From Kribbella pratensis (GTDB taxonomy: Bacteria; Actinomycetota; Actinomycetes; Propionibacteriales; Kribbellaceae): DNA of 64,000 bases. The DNA lies in assembly GCF_004365355.1 (NCBI RefSeq), contig NZ_SODP01000001.1:1619473-1683472 (forward strand), in the 5' to 3' direction. The position numbers and the translations under genes are program-made. Of this stretch, positions 4,312-48,949 are shown in pieces (the stretch's first letter is position 1; each line of letters starts with the position of its first letter). Under the pieces are notes generated by a model. It was not told the DNA's origin. It worked only from the letters and a program-made list of their open reading frames with translations, and ran no database searches.

Positions 4312-5254
4312 CCGGACGCGCCCTCGCCGAGCCGTCGGTGACCGGCGGCGGAAGAGCCTTTGCCACGGCGTCGATTGCCGACGCTTGCTTGCGGTCGGGT
4401 GTGGTCTCGCCGCGTGCGGTGGGGGAGCGGAGGGGCTCGGGCTTCGTGAAGTCGGAGATTGCGGCGACGACCGGGGGTGTGTAGGGGTGCTCGCGTACGG
4501 CGGTGGTCTGCATGGGGGAGGGTGTTGGAGGGTGGATGGCTTCCTTCAGTTCAGTGCGGAAGAACTTGACGAGTTCCTTTGCGCGGAGGACTCGGCTGCG
4601 GCGGAGGACGTGCTGTTCGCCGGACAGTGACGCTTTCTCGCGCCAGCTGACGTCGAACATGATCCGGCCGAGTCGAAAGCCGGCGTTCGTCTCGCCGCCG
4701 GGGTAGCCCCGTGCACCTCCGTCGGTGAAGAACTCACTGTAGAAGGCGCCCTCGTCCTCGAACTTCAGCACGTTCCAGGCCCGGAACTGGTCGGTCGGCA
4801 GCTCGCCCCGCACCCACGCCTCATCCATCAACGCATGCGACTCGGCGTTCAGCGGCCGGTGCCCGACATACCGGTACTGCGGACGCTCGCCCCGCCGGCG
4901 GCGTTCGTACTCCGTGATGATCTGCGGCCATTCATCCGCGGAGATCGCCCGGGCCAGCCGCGACGCCAACGACGTACGTGCCCGCAGCTCGGCCCGCGAG
5001 GTCACCGGGTGATCGGTCCGACCGGTCATCGTCTCGAGCTTGTCCATCACGAACGTCTCGCCTATCGGCCCGACCCGCTCCCACTGGGTGACCTTCAGCG
5101 AAGGGCGATTCGGCCCGCCGGTCAGCGTGTTGAGCGCACGCAGCGCGGCGATTCCCAACCGGTAGAGCGGTACGCGCCGGCGCATGATGCGCGTCTCCCA
5201 GCGAGTCCGCTCGTCGCTGTCCAACCACGCAGTACCGACCAGATCGCGGCTCAT
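4154..5254 (-). CDS. hypothetical protein, partner of MarR regulator
   Basis: The frame gives 366 residues from an ATG that overlaps the stop of the MarR-type gene (ATGA), so the two form an operon. The first 250 residues look like a real soluble protein rich in charged helices (YERRRRGERPQYRYVGHRPL, GGARGYPGGETNAGF). The last 90 are Pro/Ala/Gly-rich and run 158 bp into the 3' end of the amidase on the other strand. That tail reads like antisense amidase codons, so the true product may end earlier in related strains. I recognise no domain; coupling to the regulator suggests an accessory or ligand-handling role. Confidence 0.6.
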   Translation of the reverse strand: MSRDLVGTAWLDSDERTRWETRIMRRRVPLYRLGIAALRALNTLTGGPNRPSLKVTQWERVGPIGETFVMDKLETMTGRTDHPVTSRAELRARTSLASRLARAISADEWPQIITEYERRRRGERPQYRYVGHRPLNAESHALMDEAWVRGELPTDQFRAWNVLKFEDEGAFYSEFFTDGGARGYPGGETNAGFRLGRIMFDVSWREKASLSGEQHVLRRSRVLRAKELVKFFRTELKEAIHPPTPSPMQTTAVREHPYTPPVVAAISDFTKPEPLRSPTARGETTPDRKQASAIDAVAKALPPPVTDGSARARPVSGPAGGEGRPGAGEPPPAQPRPPHAAQPPARPPAVPATFRPGRSPRDGRSR

Positions 5255-14632: not shown

Positions 14633-15508
14633 TCACGCCTTCAACGACACCAGATCGACCGTTCGCAGGTAGTCGGCATCGCCCCGGAGATCGATCGTCG
14701 CGACACGCCCCTCGACCACCGTGAAAGAGAACACAACGACCGGTTCGCCGCGCTGCATCCACACCAGCCCGGGCATCCCGTCGACAAGCATGAGTTTCGC
14801 CGCCTGCGCCCGCCCCGAGAACGCGGCGGCGACCCGGTCGTGCCCGGTGATGCTCGCAGCGATGCCGCGTTCGGAGGCGCCGGCGTCTGCCCGTACGACG
14901 ATCTCGGGGTCGAGTACCTCTAGCAACGCGGAGAAGTCCGCGTTGCGTGCGGCGGCCAGGAACACGCTGACGACTTCCTGCTGCCGGACCACGTCCACGC
15001 TGGACGGTTCCGGCGTACCGCGGACCCGGCGCCGCGCGCGGCTCGCGATCTGCCGCGCGGCCGCCGGCGACTTGCCGATGATCGGGGCGATGTCTTCGAA
15101 CGGTACGGCGAACAGGTCGTGCAGTACGAAGGCCAACCGCTCCGCAGGCGACAGCGTCTCGAGTACGACGAGCAGCGCGAGCCCGACCGAGTCCGCCTGC
15201 ACGGCTTCGAGCTCGGGATCGGGTACGACGTCGTCCGCGAGCACGGGGGAGTGGTCGCTGACGGGCAGCTCGGGCCGACCGCGGCGGGTGCGGAGCATGT
15301 CGAGGCAGATCCGTCCGACGACCGTGGTCAGCCAGCCGCCCAGGTTGTCGATCGTCGCGGTGTCGCTGCGGCTGAGCCGGATCCACGTCTCCTGTACTGC
15401 GTCCTCCGCCTCGGGCTCAGAGCCTAGGATCCGGTACGCGACGGCGCGCAGGCGGTCCCGGTTCTGCTCGAACCGCGTCGCGAGCCAGTCGTCCCCATCC
15501 ATGTCCAT
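14633..15508 (-). CDS. ECF41-type RNA polymerase sigma factor with SnoaL-like domain
   Basis: A 291-residue extracytoplasmic-function sigma factor. Region 2 (AYRILGSEPEAEDAVQETWIRL, about 20-45) and region 4 (LSPAERLAFVLHDLFAVPFEDIAPIIGKS, about 112-140) are followed by a 120-residue SnoaL-like extension, the fused regulatory domain typical of ECF41. The ATG at 15508 sits 5 bases after GGTGGAG. The shared 96-bp spacer with the divergent oxidoreductase contains a TGTCACA-N16-CGTC promoter in each direction, so it probably drives itself and its neighbour. No anti-sigma factor is present, as expected for this group. Confidence 0.88.
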   Translation of the reverse strand: MDMDGDDWLATRFEQNRDRLRAVAYRILGSEPEAEDAVQETWIRLSRSDTATIDNLGGWLTTVVGRICLDMLRTRRGRPELPVSDHSPVLADDVVPDPELEAVQADSVGLALLVVLETLSPAERLAFVLHDLFAVPFEDIAPIIGKSPAAARQIASRARRRVRGTPEPSSVDVVRQQEVVSVFLAAARNADFSALLEVLDPEIVVRADAGASERGIAASITGHDRVAAAFSGRAQAAKLMLVDGMPGLVWMQRGEPVVVFSFTVVEGRVATIDLRGDADYLRTVDLVSLKA

Positions 15509-15520
15509 CACCACTCCACC

Positions 15521-15547
15521 TGTCACACCAGCCGGCCCTGCGCCGTC
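15521..15547 (+). promoter_or_regulatory. ECF41-type promoter for the PPOX gene
   Basis: TGTCACA (15521-15527), 16 bases, then CGTC (15544-15547), pointing at the gene starting at 15605. This matches the ECF41 promoter consensus as I recall it from the literature. Confidence 0.75.
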
Positions 15548-15555
15548 ACCCCGAT

Positions 15556-15582
15556 GACGTAGCGCTGGGACCACATGTGACA
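15556..15582 (-). promoter_or_regulatory. ECF41-type autoregulatory promoter
   Basis: On the minus strand TGTCACA (15582-15576), 16 bases, then CGTC (15559-15556), pointing at the sigma factor gene itself. Confidence 0.75.
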
Positions 15583-15604: not shown

Positions 15605-16045
15605 ATGACGGAACCACCCCGCCCGCTGCCCGTACGCAAGCAGGACATGCTGCGCCGCTTCGAGCAGGACATCGACGCCTGGGTGGCGACAGCGTCGCTC
15701 GATGGCACGCCGTACCTGATGCCCCTGTCGTTCCTGTGGTCCAACGACACCCTGCTGCTGTCCACAACCGTCACCAATCCCACCGCCCGCAACCTGCAGA
15801 CCAACCCGAAGGTGCAGTTGACGATCGGCCAGGTCCGCGACGTCATCCACATCACCGGCACCGCAGCGATCACAGACGTCACCGCCACCGAAGGCGAGTC
15901 CTTCGCCACGAAGGCCGGCTTCGACCCCCGCCCCCTACCGAACTACCCCTTCTTCCGCGTCACTCCCACCAAGATCCAAGCCTGGCGCGAGGTCAACGAA
16001 CTCAAGGACCGCACCTTGATGGACAAGGGCACCTGGCTCATCTGA
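15605..16045 (+). CDS. pyridoxamine 5'-phosphate oxidase-like (PPOX) flavin protein
   Basis: A 146-residue split-barrel protein of the PPOX/F420-or-FMN oxidoreductase superfamily. Typical stretches are IDAWVATASLDGTPYLMPLSF (about 22-42), ARNLQTNPKVQLTIGQ (near 60-75) and a C-terminal VTPTKIQAWR that ends the barrel. Cofactor choice between F420 and FMN cannot be decided. AGGAG precedes the ATG. Divergent placement from an ECF41 sigma factor with a matching promoter suggests it is the sigma factor's target, as oxidoreductases often are for this group. Confidence 0.82.
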   Translation: MTEPPRPLPVRKQDMLRRFEQDIDAWVATASLDGTPYLMPLSFLWSNDTLLLSTTVTNPTARNLQTNPKVQLTIGQVRDVIHITGTAAITDVTATEGESFATKAGFDPRPLPNYPFFRVTPTKIQAWREVNELKDRTLMDKGTWLI

Positions 16046-45808: not shown

Positions 45809-47371
45809 GTGACCGACTCGCACAACTCCGGACAGCACAAGGACCGGGAAGCGGCGGCGGCCGAGGTCCGGAGAATGTGGCAGCCGACCCCCTCCTGGAC
45901 CCAGCCGGACCCTAACGACACCGAGCCGGCCGAGGAGAAGGACGAGCAGCAGCCCGCTCTGTCCAAGGAGTTCCCAGCCGACTCCTGGTCGACGCCGGCC
46001 GCCGGCCAGCCGGTCGACCAGCCCGCGCCGTGGACCCAGCCGCAGGCCACCCCGCCGGCGCCGTCCTGGACCCAGCCGGTGGCCGAGTCCGCCGCAGCGT
46101 CGTGGACGCAGCCGGAGGACTTCGACGAGGAGCCGGTCGAGCCGCAGCCGGCCGACGCGTCCGAGTCGGCAGCTGAGCACCCGGACCAGACTCCGGCGGC
46201 CCCGAACAGCCCGGTCTTCGGCGGTTCCTCGTTCCACGGCTCGGGTAGCGGACTCGGCCCGGAGCAGGGCCCCGTCGGCCAGCCCCAGCCCGGCCAGCCC
46301 GGCCAGCCCCAGGCGGGTCAGCCCGGTCAACCCGGCCAGGGCGGACCGCAGCGTGGTCAGGGCGGTCAGCCGCTGTCCCCGGCGGCGCAGCACTTCTTCC
46401 CGCAGGGCATCCCCGGCCAGCAGCCCCAGCCGCAGAACCTCTCCTTCCGCACCGACGACCTGATCCAGGCTCTGCCGTTGCCGCGGGAGGCTCCGGCCGA
46501 GCGTGGTGTCCGCAGCATGCTGAAGCTTCGTCCGGGCAGCGCCGAGCGGTCCGAGCGGATCGCGCGGGCGACCGCTGCGACAGCTTTCCGGCGTCCGGTG
46601 ACGATCGTTGTGGCCAACCCGAAGGGCGGCTCCGGCAAGACGCCGACCACACTGCTGCTGTCGGGTGCGCTCGGCCAGGCCCGTGGCGGCGGTGTCGTCG
46701 CGTGGGACAACAACGAGCTGCGCGGCAACATGCACCTGCGCACCCACGACACGAACTCCCGGTCCACCGTGACGGACATGCTGCAGGCGATGCCGATGCT
46801 GACCCAGCCGGATGCCCGGCTCGGTGACGTCGCGGCGTACCTGCGGCACCAGGTGTCGGGTCAGTACGACGTGCTGACGTCGGCGACCACGACGTACGCC
46901 CAGATCGAGGCGAACGACTTCGATCTGATCCACCGCTTGCTGAGCCGGTTCTACAAGGTGCTCGTGATCGACACCGGGAACAACGAGGGCTCCAGCAACT
47001 GGCGTGAGGCGATGAAGGCGGCCGACGCCCTCGTGATCCCGATCAAGTGGAAGAGCCTGTCCTGCGCGGCCGCCGTGCAGATGCTCGAGGAGCTCGACAA
47101 CCAGGGCCCCGAGGCGCAGCGGCTGATCCGCCGCGCGGTGATCGCGGTGTCGAACGGTCCGGGTGACGTCAACAAGGAGGTCGAGAAGCAGCTCCGGCCG
47201 TACTTCGAGTCGCGCGCTGCCGCCGTCGTCGACATCCCGATGGACATGCACATCGCCGCCGAGGGCCCGCTCGACCACTCCGCGCTGCAGCCCGCCACCC
47301 GGCGCGCTGCGTTGGAGCTGGCCGCCCGGGTGTCCGAGCAGGTGACGATCGCCCTCAACGCTCCGCGCTGA
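45809..47371 (+). CDS. MinD/ParA-like ATPase with long Pro/Gln-rich N terminus
   Basis: A 520-residue protein from GTG at 45809 (MTDSHNSGQHK). The first 240 residues are disordered, with four WTQP elements (for example PSWTQPDPND, APWTQPQ) and a run of GQPGQP repeats. The C-terminal 260 are a deviant Walker ATPase: ANPKGGSGKTPTTLLL (near 270), with VLVIDTGNNEGSSNW where ParA family members have the switch. Proteins of this shape accompany type VII secretion or polar localisation in actinobacteria. No esx genes are seen nearby, so the link is inference. Confidence 0.82.
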   Translation: MTDSHNSGQHKDREAAAAEVRRMWQPTPSWTQPDPNDTEPAEEKDEQQPALSKEFPADSWSTPAAGQPVDQPAPWTQPQATPPAPSWTQPVAESAAASWTQPEDFDEEPVEPQPADASESAAEHPDQTPAAPNSPVFGGSSFHGSGSGLGPEQGPVGQPQPGQPGQPQAGQPGQPGQGGPQRGQGGQPLSPAAQHFFPQGIPGQQPQPQNLSFRTDDLIQALPLPREAPAERGVRSMLKLRPGSAERSERIARATAATAFRRPVTIVVANPKGGSGKTPTTLLLSGALGQARGGGVVAWDNNELRGNMHLRTHDTNSRSTVTDMLQAMPMLTQPDARLGDVAAYLRHQVSGQYDVLTSATTTYAQIEANDFDLIHRLLSRFYKVLVIDTGNNEGSSNWREAMKAADALVIPIKWKSLSCAAAVQMLEELDNQGPEAQRLIRRAVIAVSNGPGDVNKEVEKQLRPYFESRAAAVVDIPMDMHIAAEGPLDHSALQPATRRAALELAARVSEQVTIALNAPR

Positions 47372-48221
47372 GCACCGCAAGACTCAACCGGCTGAGGCGG
47401 TCCGGATCGCCAACCACGTCGTACGACGTGATCCGGTCCGCCTCGCCGGCAAAGGTGAAGGTGATGGCGAGCAGTAGCTTGCCGTGAGGGGCGAGCACCA
47501 CGCCGACCTCGCCGTTCACCAGCGCGAGCTCGGCCAGCTGGGAACGTGCGGCCAGCGCCGCCGTGCCTTCCGCGACTGCCCGCGCGCCGCGTAGCTCGGC
47601 GGACATGCCGGGAGACAGCACCGTGGCGTCGACCCGCCGGATGACGTCCGGGTCCAGCACCGCCAGGATCGCGTGGAGATCGCCTGCGCGGGCTGCTTCG
47701 AGGAACGCGGAGACCACGCGACGCTGCCGGGCCAACTCGGCTGCGGGGACCGACGGCGTGCCCTGGACCTTCTGGCGTGCCCGGCTGGCCAGCTTCTTCG
47801 TGGTGACCGGGTTCCGCTCGACGATAGGGGCGATCTGCGCGAACGGTACGGCGAACATGTCGTGCAGCACGAACGCGATCCGCTCGGCCGGCTCGAGCGT
47901 GTCCAGTACGACGAGCAGCGCCCGGCTGACCGAGTCCGCGACCAGGGCCTCGTCCTCCGGCGTACGCCGTACCGTCGGCACCTGCTCCAGCTCGTCGGGA
48001 TCCTCCGGCGGGGCTTTGCGACCACGCAGCATGTCCAGGCAGATCCGCGTCCCCACCGTGCGGAGCCAGCCGCCCAGATTGTCGATGCCGTCCGTGCGGT
48101 CGAGCCGGATCCAGGCCTCCTGCACCGCGTCCTCGGCCTCACTGTGCGAGCCCAGCAGGCGGTACGCGACCGCTTCCAGCTTGCTGCGCTCGGCTTCGAA
48201 GGCCTCGGTCAGCTCGTCCAC
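47355..48221 (-). CDS. ECF41-type RNA polymerase sigma factor, second copy
   Basis: A 288-residue sigma factor of the same layout as the one at 14.6 kb: region 2 in AYRLLGSHSEAEDAVQEAWIRL, region 4 in LEPAERIAFVLHDMFAVPFAQIAPIVERNP and a SnoaL-like tail with GDPDRLSRL near the C terminus, the ECF41 NPDKL-type motif. The GTG start follows GGAAAGG. Its promoter and that of the divergent azoreductase both read GGTCACC-N16-CGTC, against TGTCACA-N16-CGTC at the other module, so it may have its own promoter specificity. Confidence 0.88.
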   Translation of the reverse strand: MDELTEAFEAERSKLEAVAYRLLGSHSEAEDAVQEAWIRLDRTDGIDNLGGWLRTVGTRICLDMLRGRKAPPEDPDELEQVPTVRRTPEDEALVADSVSRALLVVLDTLEPAERIAFVLHDMFAVPFAQIAPIVERNPVTTKKLASRARQKVQGTPSVPAAELARQRRVVSAFLEAARAGDLHAILAVLDPDVIRRVDATVLSPGMSAELRGARAVAEGTAALAARSQLAELALVNGEVGVVLAPHGKLLLAITFTFAGEADRITSYDVVGDPDRLSRLSLAVLSAER

Positions 48222-48223
48222 CT

Positions 48224-48250
48224 GGTCACCTTTCCGCGCTACCCGCCGTC
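48224..48250 (+). promoter_or_regulatory. ECF41-type promoter with GGTCACC -35
   Basis: GGTCACC (48224-48230), 16 bases, CGTC (48247-48250), pointing at the azoreductase gene at 48287. Confidence 0.7.
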
Positions 48251-48259
48251 ACCCAGTCT

Positions 48260-48286
48260 GACGACCACGAGACGACGAAGGTGACC
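48260..48286 (-). promoter_or_regulatory. ECF41-type autoregulatory promoter with GGTCACC -35
   Basis: On the minus strand GGTCACC (48286-48280), 16 bases, CGTC (48263-48260), pointing at the sigma factor gene. Its -35 lies between the ribosome-binding site and start codon of the opposite gene. Confidence 0.7.
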
Positions 48287-48949
48287 ATGCTGTTGCATCT
48301 GGATTCCAGTGCCAATCGCTCCGACGAGTCGGTGACCAGGAGGCTGACCAGACTGTTCGCGGACCGCTGGCGGTCCGACCACGACTCGACCGAGTACCGG
48401 TACCGCGACCTCGCCGCGGACCCGGTGCCGCCCATCGACACGGCGTACTGTCAGCTCGGCCGGCGTTCCGAGCGGGAGGGCGTGGTGCCGCTCGAGCTGG
48501 TCGGCGCCCTGGTCGAGAACGCCGCCGAAGCTGATGCCTGGGCACTGACCGAGCCGCTGATCACCGAGGTGCTGGCGAGCAGCACGATCCTGATCGGAGC
48601 GCCGCTGTACAACTTCTCGCTGCCCGCCGCGCTCAAGGCCTGGATCGACCGCATCACCTTTCCGGGCGTGCTGGCACTGGGAGACACCGAGGTAGTGGTG
48701 ATCACCAGCCGCGGCGGTGCCTACGGTCCAGGGACGCGGCGGGAGGGCTGGGACTACGAGGTGCCCTACCTGCGCGCGTACTTCACCAACTACGGCGTCC
48801 GAGACGACAACATCCGGTTCATCACGGCAGAGCTCAGTCTGGCCGGGCTGGTCCCGCGCCTCGCGCACCTGCGTCCGTTGGCGGAGCAATCCCTGGCGGA
48901 CGCGATCTCAAGCATCGCGACGGGTCAGCACGCGACTGCCGAGCGCTAG
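48287..48949 (+). CDS. FMN-dependent NADH-azoreductase-like protein
   Basis: About 220 residues with a flavodoxin-like fold: LHLDSSANRSDESVTRRLT at the start (phosphate loop SSxxxxxS), GAPLYNFSLPAALKAWIDRI near 104-123, and VVVITSRGGAYGPGTRREGWDYEVPYLRAYF near 132. These are signatures of AzoR. It reduces quinones or azo dyes with NADH via FMN. ATG at 48287 follows GAAGG; a GTG two codons earlier is possible. It is the probable target of the divergent ECF41 factor. Its end overlaps the permease gene by 42 bp. Confidence 0.86.
   Translation: MLLHLDSSANRSDESVTRRLTRLFADRWRSDHDSTEYRYRDLAADPVPPIDTAYCQLGRRSEREGVVPLELVGALVENAAEADAWALTEPLITEVLASSTILIGAPLYNFSLPAALKAWIDRITFPGVLALGDTEVVVITSRGGAYGPGTRREGWDYEVPYLRAYFTNYGVRDDNIRFITAELSLAGLVPRLAHLRPLAEQSLADAISSIATGQHATAER

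Follow-up and report, generated by a model that had tools for sequence, protein, structure and literature searches.

The promoters of one paralogous regulator must not be fired by another, which raises the question of how specificity can shift without passing through a non-functional state. The window analysed here (the whole 64,000-nucleotide stretch of Kribbella pratensis DNA) bears on it, as it encodes two sigma factors with 50% protein identity (P0001 and P0003), each facing a divergent partner gene. The original prediction held that the second module repeats the divergent layout and the N16-CGTC of the first, with GGTCACC replacing TGTCACA, and exact sites were indeed found both ways. What emerges from the relatives is that one recognition-helix amino acid tracks one promoter base across many species, which may prevent cross-talk with the sister switch in the same genome. 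Since sigma factor and target adjoin each other on 63 bp, a single residue goes with a single base and closely related natural pairs exist (L294/L076, below), the question becomes experimentally tractable.

The segment between the SigJ/ECF41-like sigma gene and the divergent flavodoxin-fold oxidoreductase gene carries GGTCACC-N16-CGTC-N9-GACG-N16-GGTGACC, a 63-bp dyad (48224-48286) that has no mismatches, occurs once in the window and comprises two full GGTCACC-N16-CGTC sites (48224-48250, plus strand; 48260-48286, minus strand). The dyad is real, exact and beyond chance expectation (shuffled windows gave 0.01 matches at up to 3 mismatches). The features of the two modules are, by window position:

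47355-48221, minus strand: gene of the ECF sigma factor P0001 (288 aa, GTG start, C-terminal extension; Sigma70_r2 and r4_2 domains)
47793-47798, minus strand: the two codons for K142-K143, -35 recognition helix (the paralogue has RQ), from sequence and alignment
48224-48230, plus strand: putative -35 GGTCACC of the promoter towards the oxidoreductase gene (motif scan, leaders of relatives)
48229-48235, minus strand: Shine-Dalgarno-like GGAAAGG of the sigma gene, overlapping bases 6-7 of the plus-strand -35
48247-48250, plus strand: putative -10 CGTC of the promoter towards the oxidoreductase gene (motif scan)
48260-48263, minus strand: putative -10 CGTC of the promoter towards the sigma gene (motif scan)
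48277-48281, plus strand: Shine-Dalgarno-like GAAGG of the oxidoreductase gene, overlapping bases 6-7 of the minus-strand -35
48280-48286, minus strand: putative -35 GGTCACC of the promoter towards the sigma gene (motif scan, relatives)
48287-48949, plus strand: gene of the Flavodoxin_2-fold oxidoreductase P0002 (ATG start; PF02525, E 4.4e-27)
14633-15508, minus strand: gene of the paralogous sigma factor P0003 (RQ helix; start at ATG 15508 or 15502)
15521-15582, both strands: comparison dyad of 62 bp, TGTCACA-N16-CGTC both ways (sites 15521-15547, plus; 15556-15582, minus)
15605-16045, plus strand: gene of P0004 (PNPOx fold, domain match), the divergent partner of P0003

The single motif is common: the genome-wide count of GGTCACC-N16-CGTC that the original prediction had called for gave 59 matches in the 8.37-Mb genome (13 with the pattern reversed), and the signal is the divergent pair with its fixed geometry, not the lone motif. 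Two GGTCACC matches elsewhere in the window, at 4315 (spacer 18) and 45607 (spacer 14), stand unpaired and were taken as chance. The outer distance of paired -35s was 62-65 in 106 of 127 pairs (62 in 79, 63 in 23, 65 in 4), and this near-fixed distance means that each -35 sits inside the 5' leader of the opposite gene. The predicted location of the -35s, in the spacer between the opposite ribosome-binding site and start codon, is right as to the spacer and incomplete, in that bases 6-7 also form the final two G of the opposite Shine-Dalgarno-like run. A possible alternative start of P0002 (in-frame GTG, 48281-48283) lies inside the minus-strand -35, and the ATG at 48287 is better placed for GAAGG. 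The same GTG aligns with the oxidoreductase start codon of several relatives, and the start codon itself may fall within the promoter element. We infer that the two sites are promoters of P0001, and the 63-bp stretch would then act as a symmetric bidirectional promoter read both ways by the product of the sigma gene to its left, with one direction serving autoregulation of the sigma gene and the other expression of the flavodoxin-fold oxidoreductase (presumably with one polymerase at a time on the unit).

Both modules had been labelled ECF41, a label that had to be weakened: the WLPEP motif between sigma2 and sigma4, a linker feature that the published description of that group (PMC3426412) treats as defining, is absent from P0001 and P0003. 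For this reason we term P0001 ECF41-like, and both sigma factors of the window are ECF41-like, not proven ECF41 members. In the alignment described below, [WY]LPEP occurs in 14 of 343 rows, every one with an RQ helix. ECF41 proteins have a SnoaL-like C-terminal extension of about 100 residues or more; that of P0001 (about 130 residues) aligns in large part with SigJ and gave no Pfam SnoaL match at E 0.001. The divergent Flavodoxin_2/FMN_red protein, conserved in the closest relatives, agrees with the neighbours typical of ECF41 (carboxymuconolactone decarboxylase, oxidoreductase or epimerase), and the ECF41 promoter TGTCACA-n16-CGTC is found at the paralogue P0003, whereas the P0001 module departs from it at bases 1 and 7. 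Against the SigJ model NF007214, P0001 scored 205.8 bits and P0003 238.5 bits, both under the curated cut-off of 271; residues 7-244 of P0001 align with residues 11-260 of M. tuberculosis SigJ (5xe7, E 6.1e-34). SigJ-like sigma factors bearing WLPEP (L013-L017, L019-L022) coexist with WLPEP-less ones in the window's genome, and L015 (RQ helix) has TGTCACC towards itself and TGTCACA in the other direction.

Loci were gathered from a public-genome scan (80 loci), the window's genus, another genus of the class, and the class and phylum. From 354 loci, 11 duplicates were removed (343 distinct) and then 13 aberrant-helix rows, leaving 330 ECF41-like rows; as best matches to three queries, partly hand-picked (19, 40 and 80 stretches), they yield counts that do not represent a random sample. 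Sites were called over the 330 loci with a strict motif (exact GTCAC-N16-CGTC); a looser scan used NGTNANN-N16-CGTC. The 288 alignment columns were ranked by normalised mutual information, redundancy-weighted, which corrects only partly for kinship, many rows being closely related.

Column 142 came out first for base 7 (-30) and column 143 second among the 288, whether sites were sigma-directed, opposite or pooled. The recognition helix reads KKLASRAR in the P0001 clade and RQLASRAR in the TGTCACA clade. By the strict motif, sigma-directed sites have A7 in 120 of 130 cases with R142 and in 1 of 67 with K142; opposite sites have it in 62 of 68 and 0 of 76, respectively. The looser scan resolved the helix pairs: RQ had 192 sites (A7 173, G7 15, C7 3, T7 1), RK 9 (A7 in 7), KK 130 (C7 105, T7 14, G7 8, A7 3) and KQ 11 (C7 10, G7 1). 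Residue 143 was rejected as the determinant of base 7, given that RK keeps A7 (7/9), KQ has C or G (11/11) and the independent pairs for 143 are mixed in direction. Exceptions are the RQ sites with G7, C7 or T7, the K142 protein L034 with TGTCACA, and L279 (R142-M143) with C7 in the site CGTTACC. A site is also missing from many loci, 91 of the 217 RQ loci having no strict sigma-directed one. Among the 80 scanned loci, 12 keep the divergent flavodoxin-fold partner; their partner-directed -35 reads GGTCACC in 10 and GGTCCCC in 2, and their sigma-directed -35 TGTCACC or TGTCACT in 7 and GGTCACC in 3.

Comparison across the loci establishes the dyad, its fixed geometry and the association of residue 142 with base 7, which holds for either direction and also outside ribosome-binding sites (where the partner gene has a separate Shine-Dalgarno, K142 sites have C 10, T 12, G 3 and A 0, n = 25, and R142 sites A 34, C 2 and G 1). 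In these alignments the A to C change at base 7 is a clade signature that tracks residue 142: the P0001 clade is an ECF41-like group in which K142-K143 replaces R142-Q143 and whose promoters have C (sometimes T or G) for A. Residue 142 probably sets the preference at -31/-30, R mostly for a purine at -30 and K mostly for a pyrimidine.

For base 1, column 142 ranks at 171-227 of 288 (143 is first in opposite-direction sites). T1 occurs with R142 in 98 of 130 sigma-directed and 27 of 68 opposite sites, and with K142 in 26 of 67 and 2 of 76, so that base 1 varies with direction as much as with protein; nor is G1 in both arms family-wide, because 7 of the 12 close relatives read TGTCACC or TGTCACT towards the sigma gene. 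In K142 loci an abutting Shine-Dalgarno goes with T1 at the sigma-directed site (17 of 22) and its absence with G1 (32 of 47), and G1 predominates where the sigma start is 1 nt away (59/60 K142, 31/48 R142). From these patterns, base 1 behaves as a translation-linked position that appears to follow the translation signals across from it, the opposite gene's ribosome-binding site and start codon; as a specificity base it is ruled out by the T1 counts, the column ranks and this dependence. G1 would thus be a separate effect of a -35 packed against those signals. The original prediction, which merged the two changes, is supported in its sigma-promoter coevolution at base 7 (A to C) and not at base 1; likewise, the change is shared in both directions at base 7 across the clade, and at base 1 only in close relatives and some others.

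How far could translation alone have shaped GGTCACC? GGTGACC would prolong the opposite Shine-Dalgarno run before the start codon and so give both C7 and G1, which suits the overlap of both window -35s with GGAAAGG and GAAGG, the sigma leaders of the K clade (GAAAGGTGACCgATG) and the G1 counts next to a sigma start. Yet RQ relatives with the same geometry have GGGAATGTGACCgATG in their sigma leaders, so the overlap is compatible with the lack of C7; the squeeze between -35 and start codon is common to both clades and therefore does not demand C7. Considering also that K142 sites with the Shine-Dalgarno placed beyond the -35 still lack A7 (0 of 25), we hold translation alone to be quite improbable and, for base 7, largely refuted; the possibility raised with the original prediction, that GGTCACC serves translation only, is rejected there and borne out at base 1. 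A binding site (operator) for a dimeric repressor or activator, in place of a promoter pair, would account for an inverted repeat of nearly fixed length, but it appears very improbable, as the spacer of 16 and the CGTC match the published ECF41 promoter (PMC3426412) and unpaired sites are common (the 217 RQ loci have 126 strict sigma-directed and only 64 opposite sites).

It is also unlikely that one old clade fixed K142-K143 and C7 together without a functional link, even though most K142 rows fall in one clade. An 84-row tree, built without columns 142-143, contains a supported 12-row clade in which 3 R142-K143 proteins have GGTCACA and 9 K142-K143 proteins C7 or G7; residue 142 is the only region 4 column that separates the two groups (outside region 4, columns 75, 83, 157, 165, 201 and 202 also do). 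In the same tree L101 (K142-Q143, C7) groups with L050 (R142-Q143, A7). L195 (K142, C7) and L230 (R142, A7) are 71% identical, and L294 and L076 79%, with 7 region 4 differences including R142K, GGTCACA in both promoters of L294 and GGTCACC in both of L076. The independent pairs of the 84-row tree (3 on well supported branches, 9 on all branches, 0 contrary) are not numerous enough for the sign test to reach significance, which leaves room for shared ancestry; against it, the separate switches (the 12-row clade, L101/L050, and L195 against its R142 relatives) are concordant, column 142 outranks all columns of the same ancestry, and the T142 and M143 lines alter other -35 bases. Because the well supported independent switches are few (3), we infer, and do not observe, that residue 142 causes the preference. 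Taken as a whole, the account that we prefer (a bidirectional promoter of P0001, covariation of residue 142 with base 7, and a separate G1 effect) seems quite likely.

P0001 has 20 matches in its genome at E 1e-8 (itself included). P0003 and a third close paralogue, L011 (TGTCACA site towards its sigma gene), are about 48-50% identical to P0001, both with RQ. The change at residue 142 and base 7 would plausibly insulate paralogous sigma factors: the -35 code could keep the KK module apart from P0003 and L011, but not P0003 from L011, because both combine RQ with TGTCACA. A wider regulon was not visible, as KGTCACY-N16-CGTCA matches the window's genome 5 times, the dyad accounting for 2, and among 38 genomes of the genus the 7 with the orthologue have 3, 5, 6, 6, 6, 8 and 14, mostly within the 2-12 of the other 31. 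Since only those 7 of the 38 genomes carry a close orthologue of this KK protein, the module is distributed patchily, through either loss or transfer.

Other helix variants extend the pattern in the looser scan: K142-M143 has 8 sites, all GTTACC, and T142-Q143 6 sigma-directed sites, all GTCAG. The former was noted as NGTTACC-N16-CGTC in L251, L258, L290, L296, L334 and L358, and the latter as NGTCAGN-N16-CGTC in L289, L295, L304, L305, L312 and L337; six opposite-direction 'GGTCATG' matches of T142 loci are the reversed sigma start codon and were set aside. Residue 143 is the top-ranked column for base 4 when opposite-direction or pooled sites are used, and the third-ranked with sigma-directed sites. 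Residue 142 fully predicts base 6 in sigma-directed sites and has no link to it in opposite-direction sites (rank 194). We give about an even chance to a two-residue code in which 142 sets bases 6-7 (R GTCACA, K GTCACC, T GTCAG) and 143 base 4 (M GTTACC), with repeated R/K switches matched in both arms and paralogues insulated in one cell.

Residue 142 is presumably the counterpart of SigW K170 and sigmaE R171 (we equate them through an alignment with SigE chains and the sigmaE sequence). A change at base 6 with T142 fits a contact at G'-31, and the effect of 142 on base 7 may be indirect. In the published account of the SigW/-35 and sigmaE/-35 structures, K170 and R171 bond G'-31, the guanine opposite base 6, whereas the base at -30 (base 7) is contacted there through the backbone alone (PMC6713349), so that a direct readout of base 7 by residue 142 is hypothetical.

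Among the papers covered, none has both ECF41 and GGTCAC, and literature searches over titles and abstract openings found none that describes this switch; novelty is unproven, Lane and Darst 2006, Todor 2020 and Casas-Pastor 2021 lying outside the comparison. The ECF41 group, as set out by Wecke et al. 2012 (PMC3426412), where TGTCACA-n16-CGTC was ECF41-dependent in two species, resembles the present module in its two-gene arrangement with an oxidoreductase, its C-terminal extension, its promoter type and its divergent genes, often with the motif before both; unlike that description, here WLPEP is missing, the -35 begins with G and ends with C, and the partner is flavodoxin-fold. M. tuberculosis SigJ (5xe7) differs from P0001 in its helix (RQLASRAR) and in having an LPEP linker stretch. 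Finally, the general ECF promoter code of Todor et al. 2020 (as described in PMC8103513, our sole basis of comparison) likewise matches sigma residues, of sigma2 and sigma4 in autoregulated ECFs, to promoter bases, whereas the present case concerns one close family, two adjacent residues with bases 4, 6 and 7, and paralogues within one genome.
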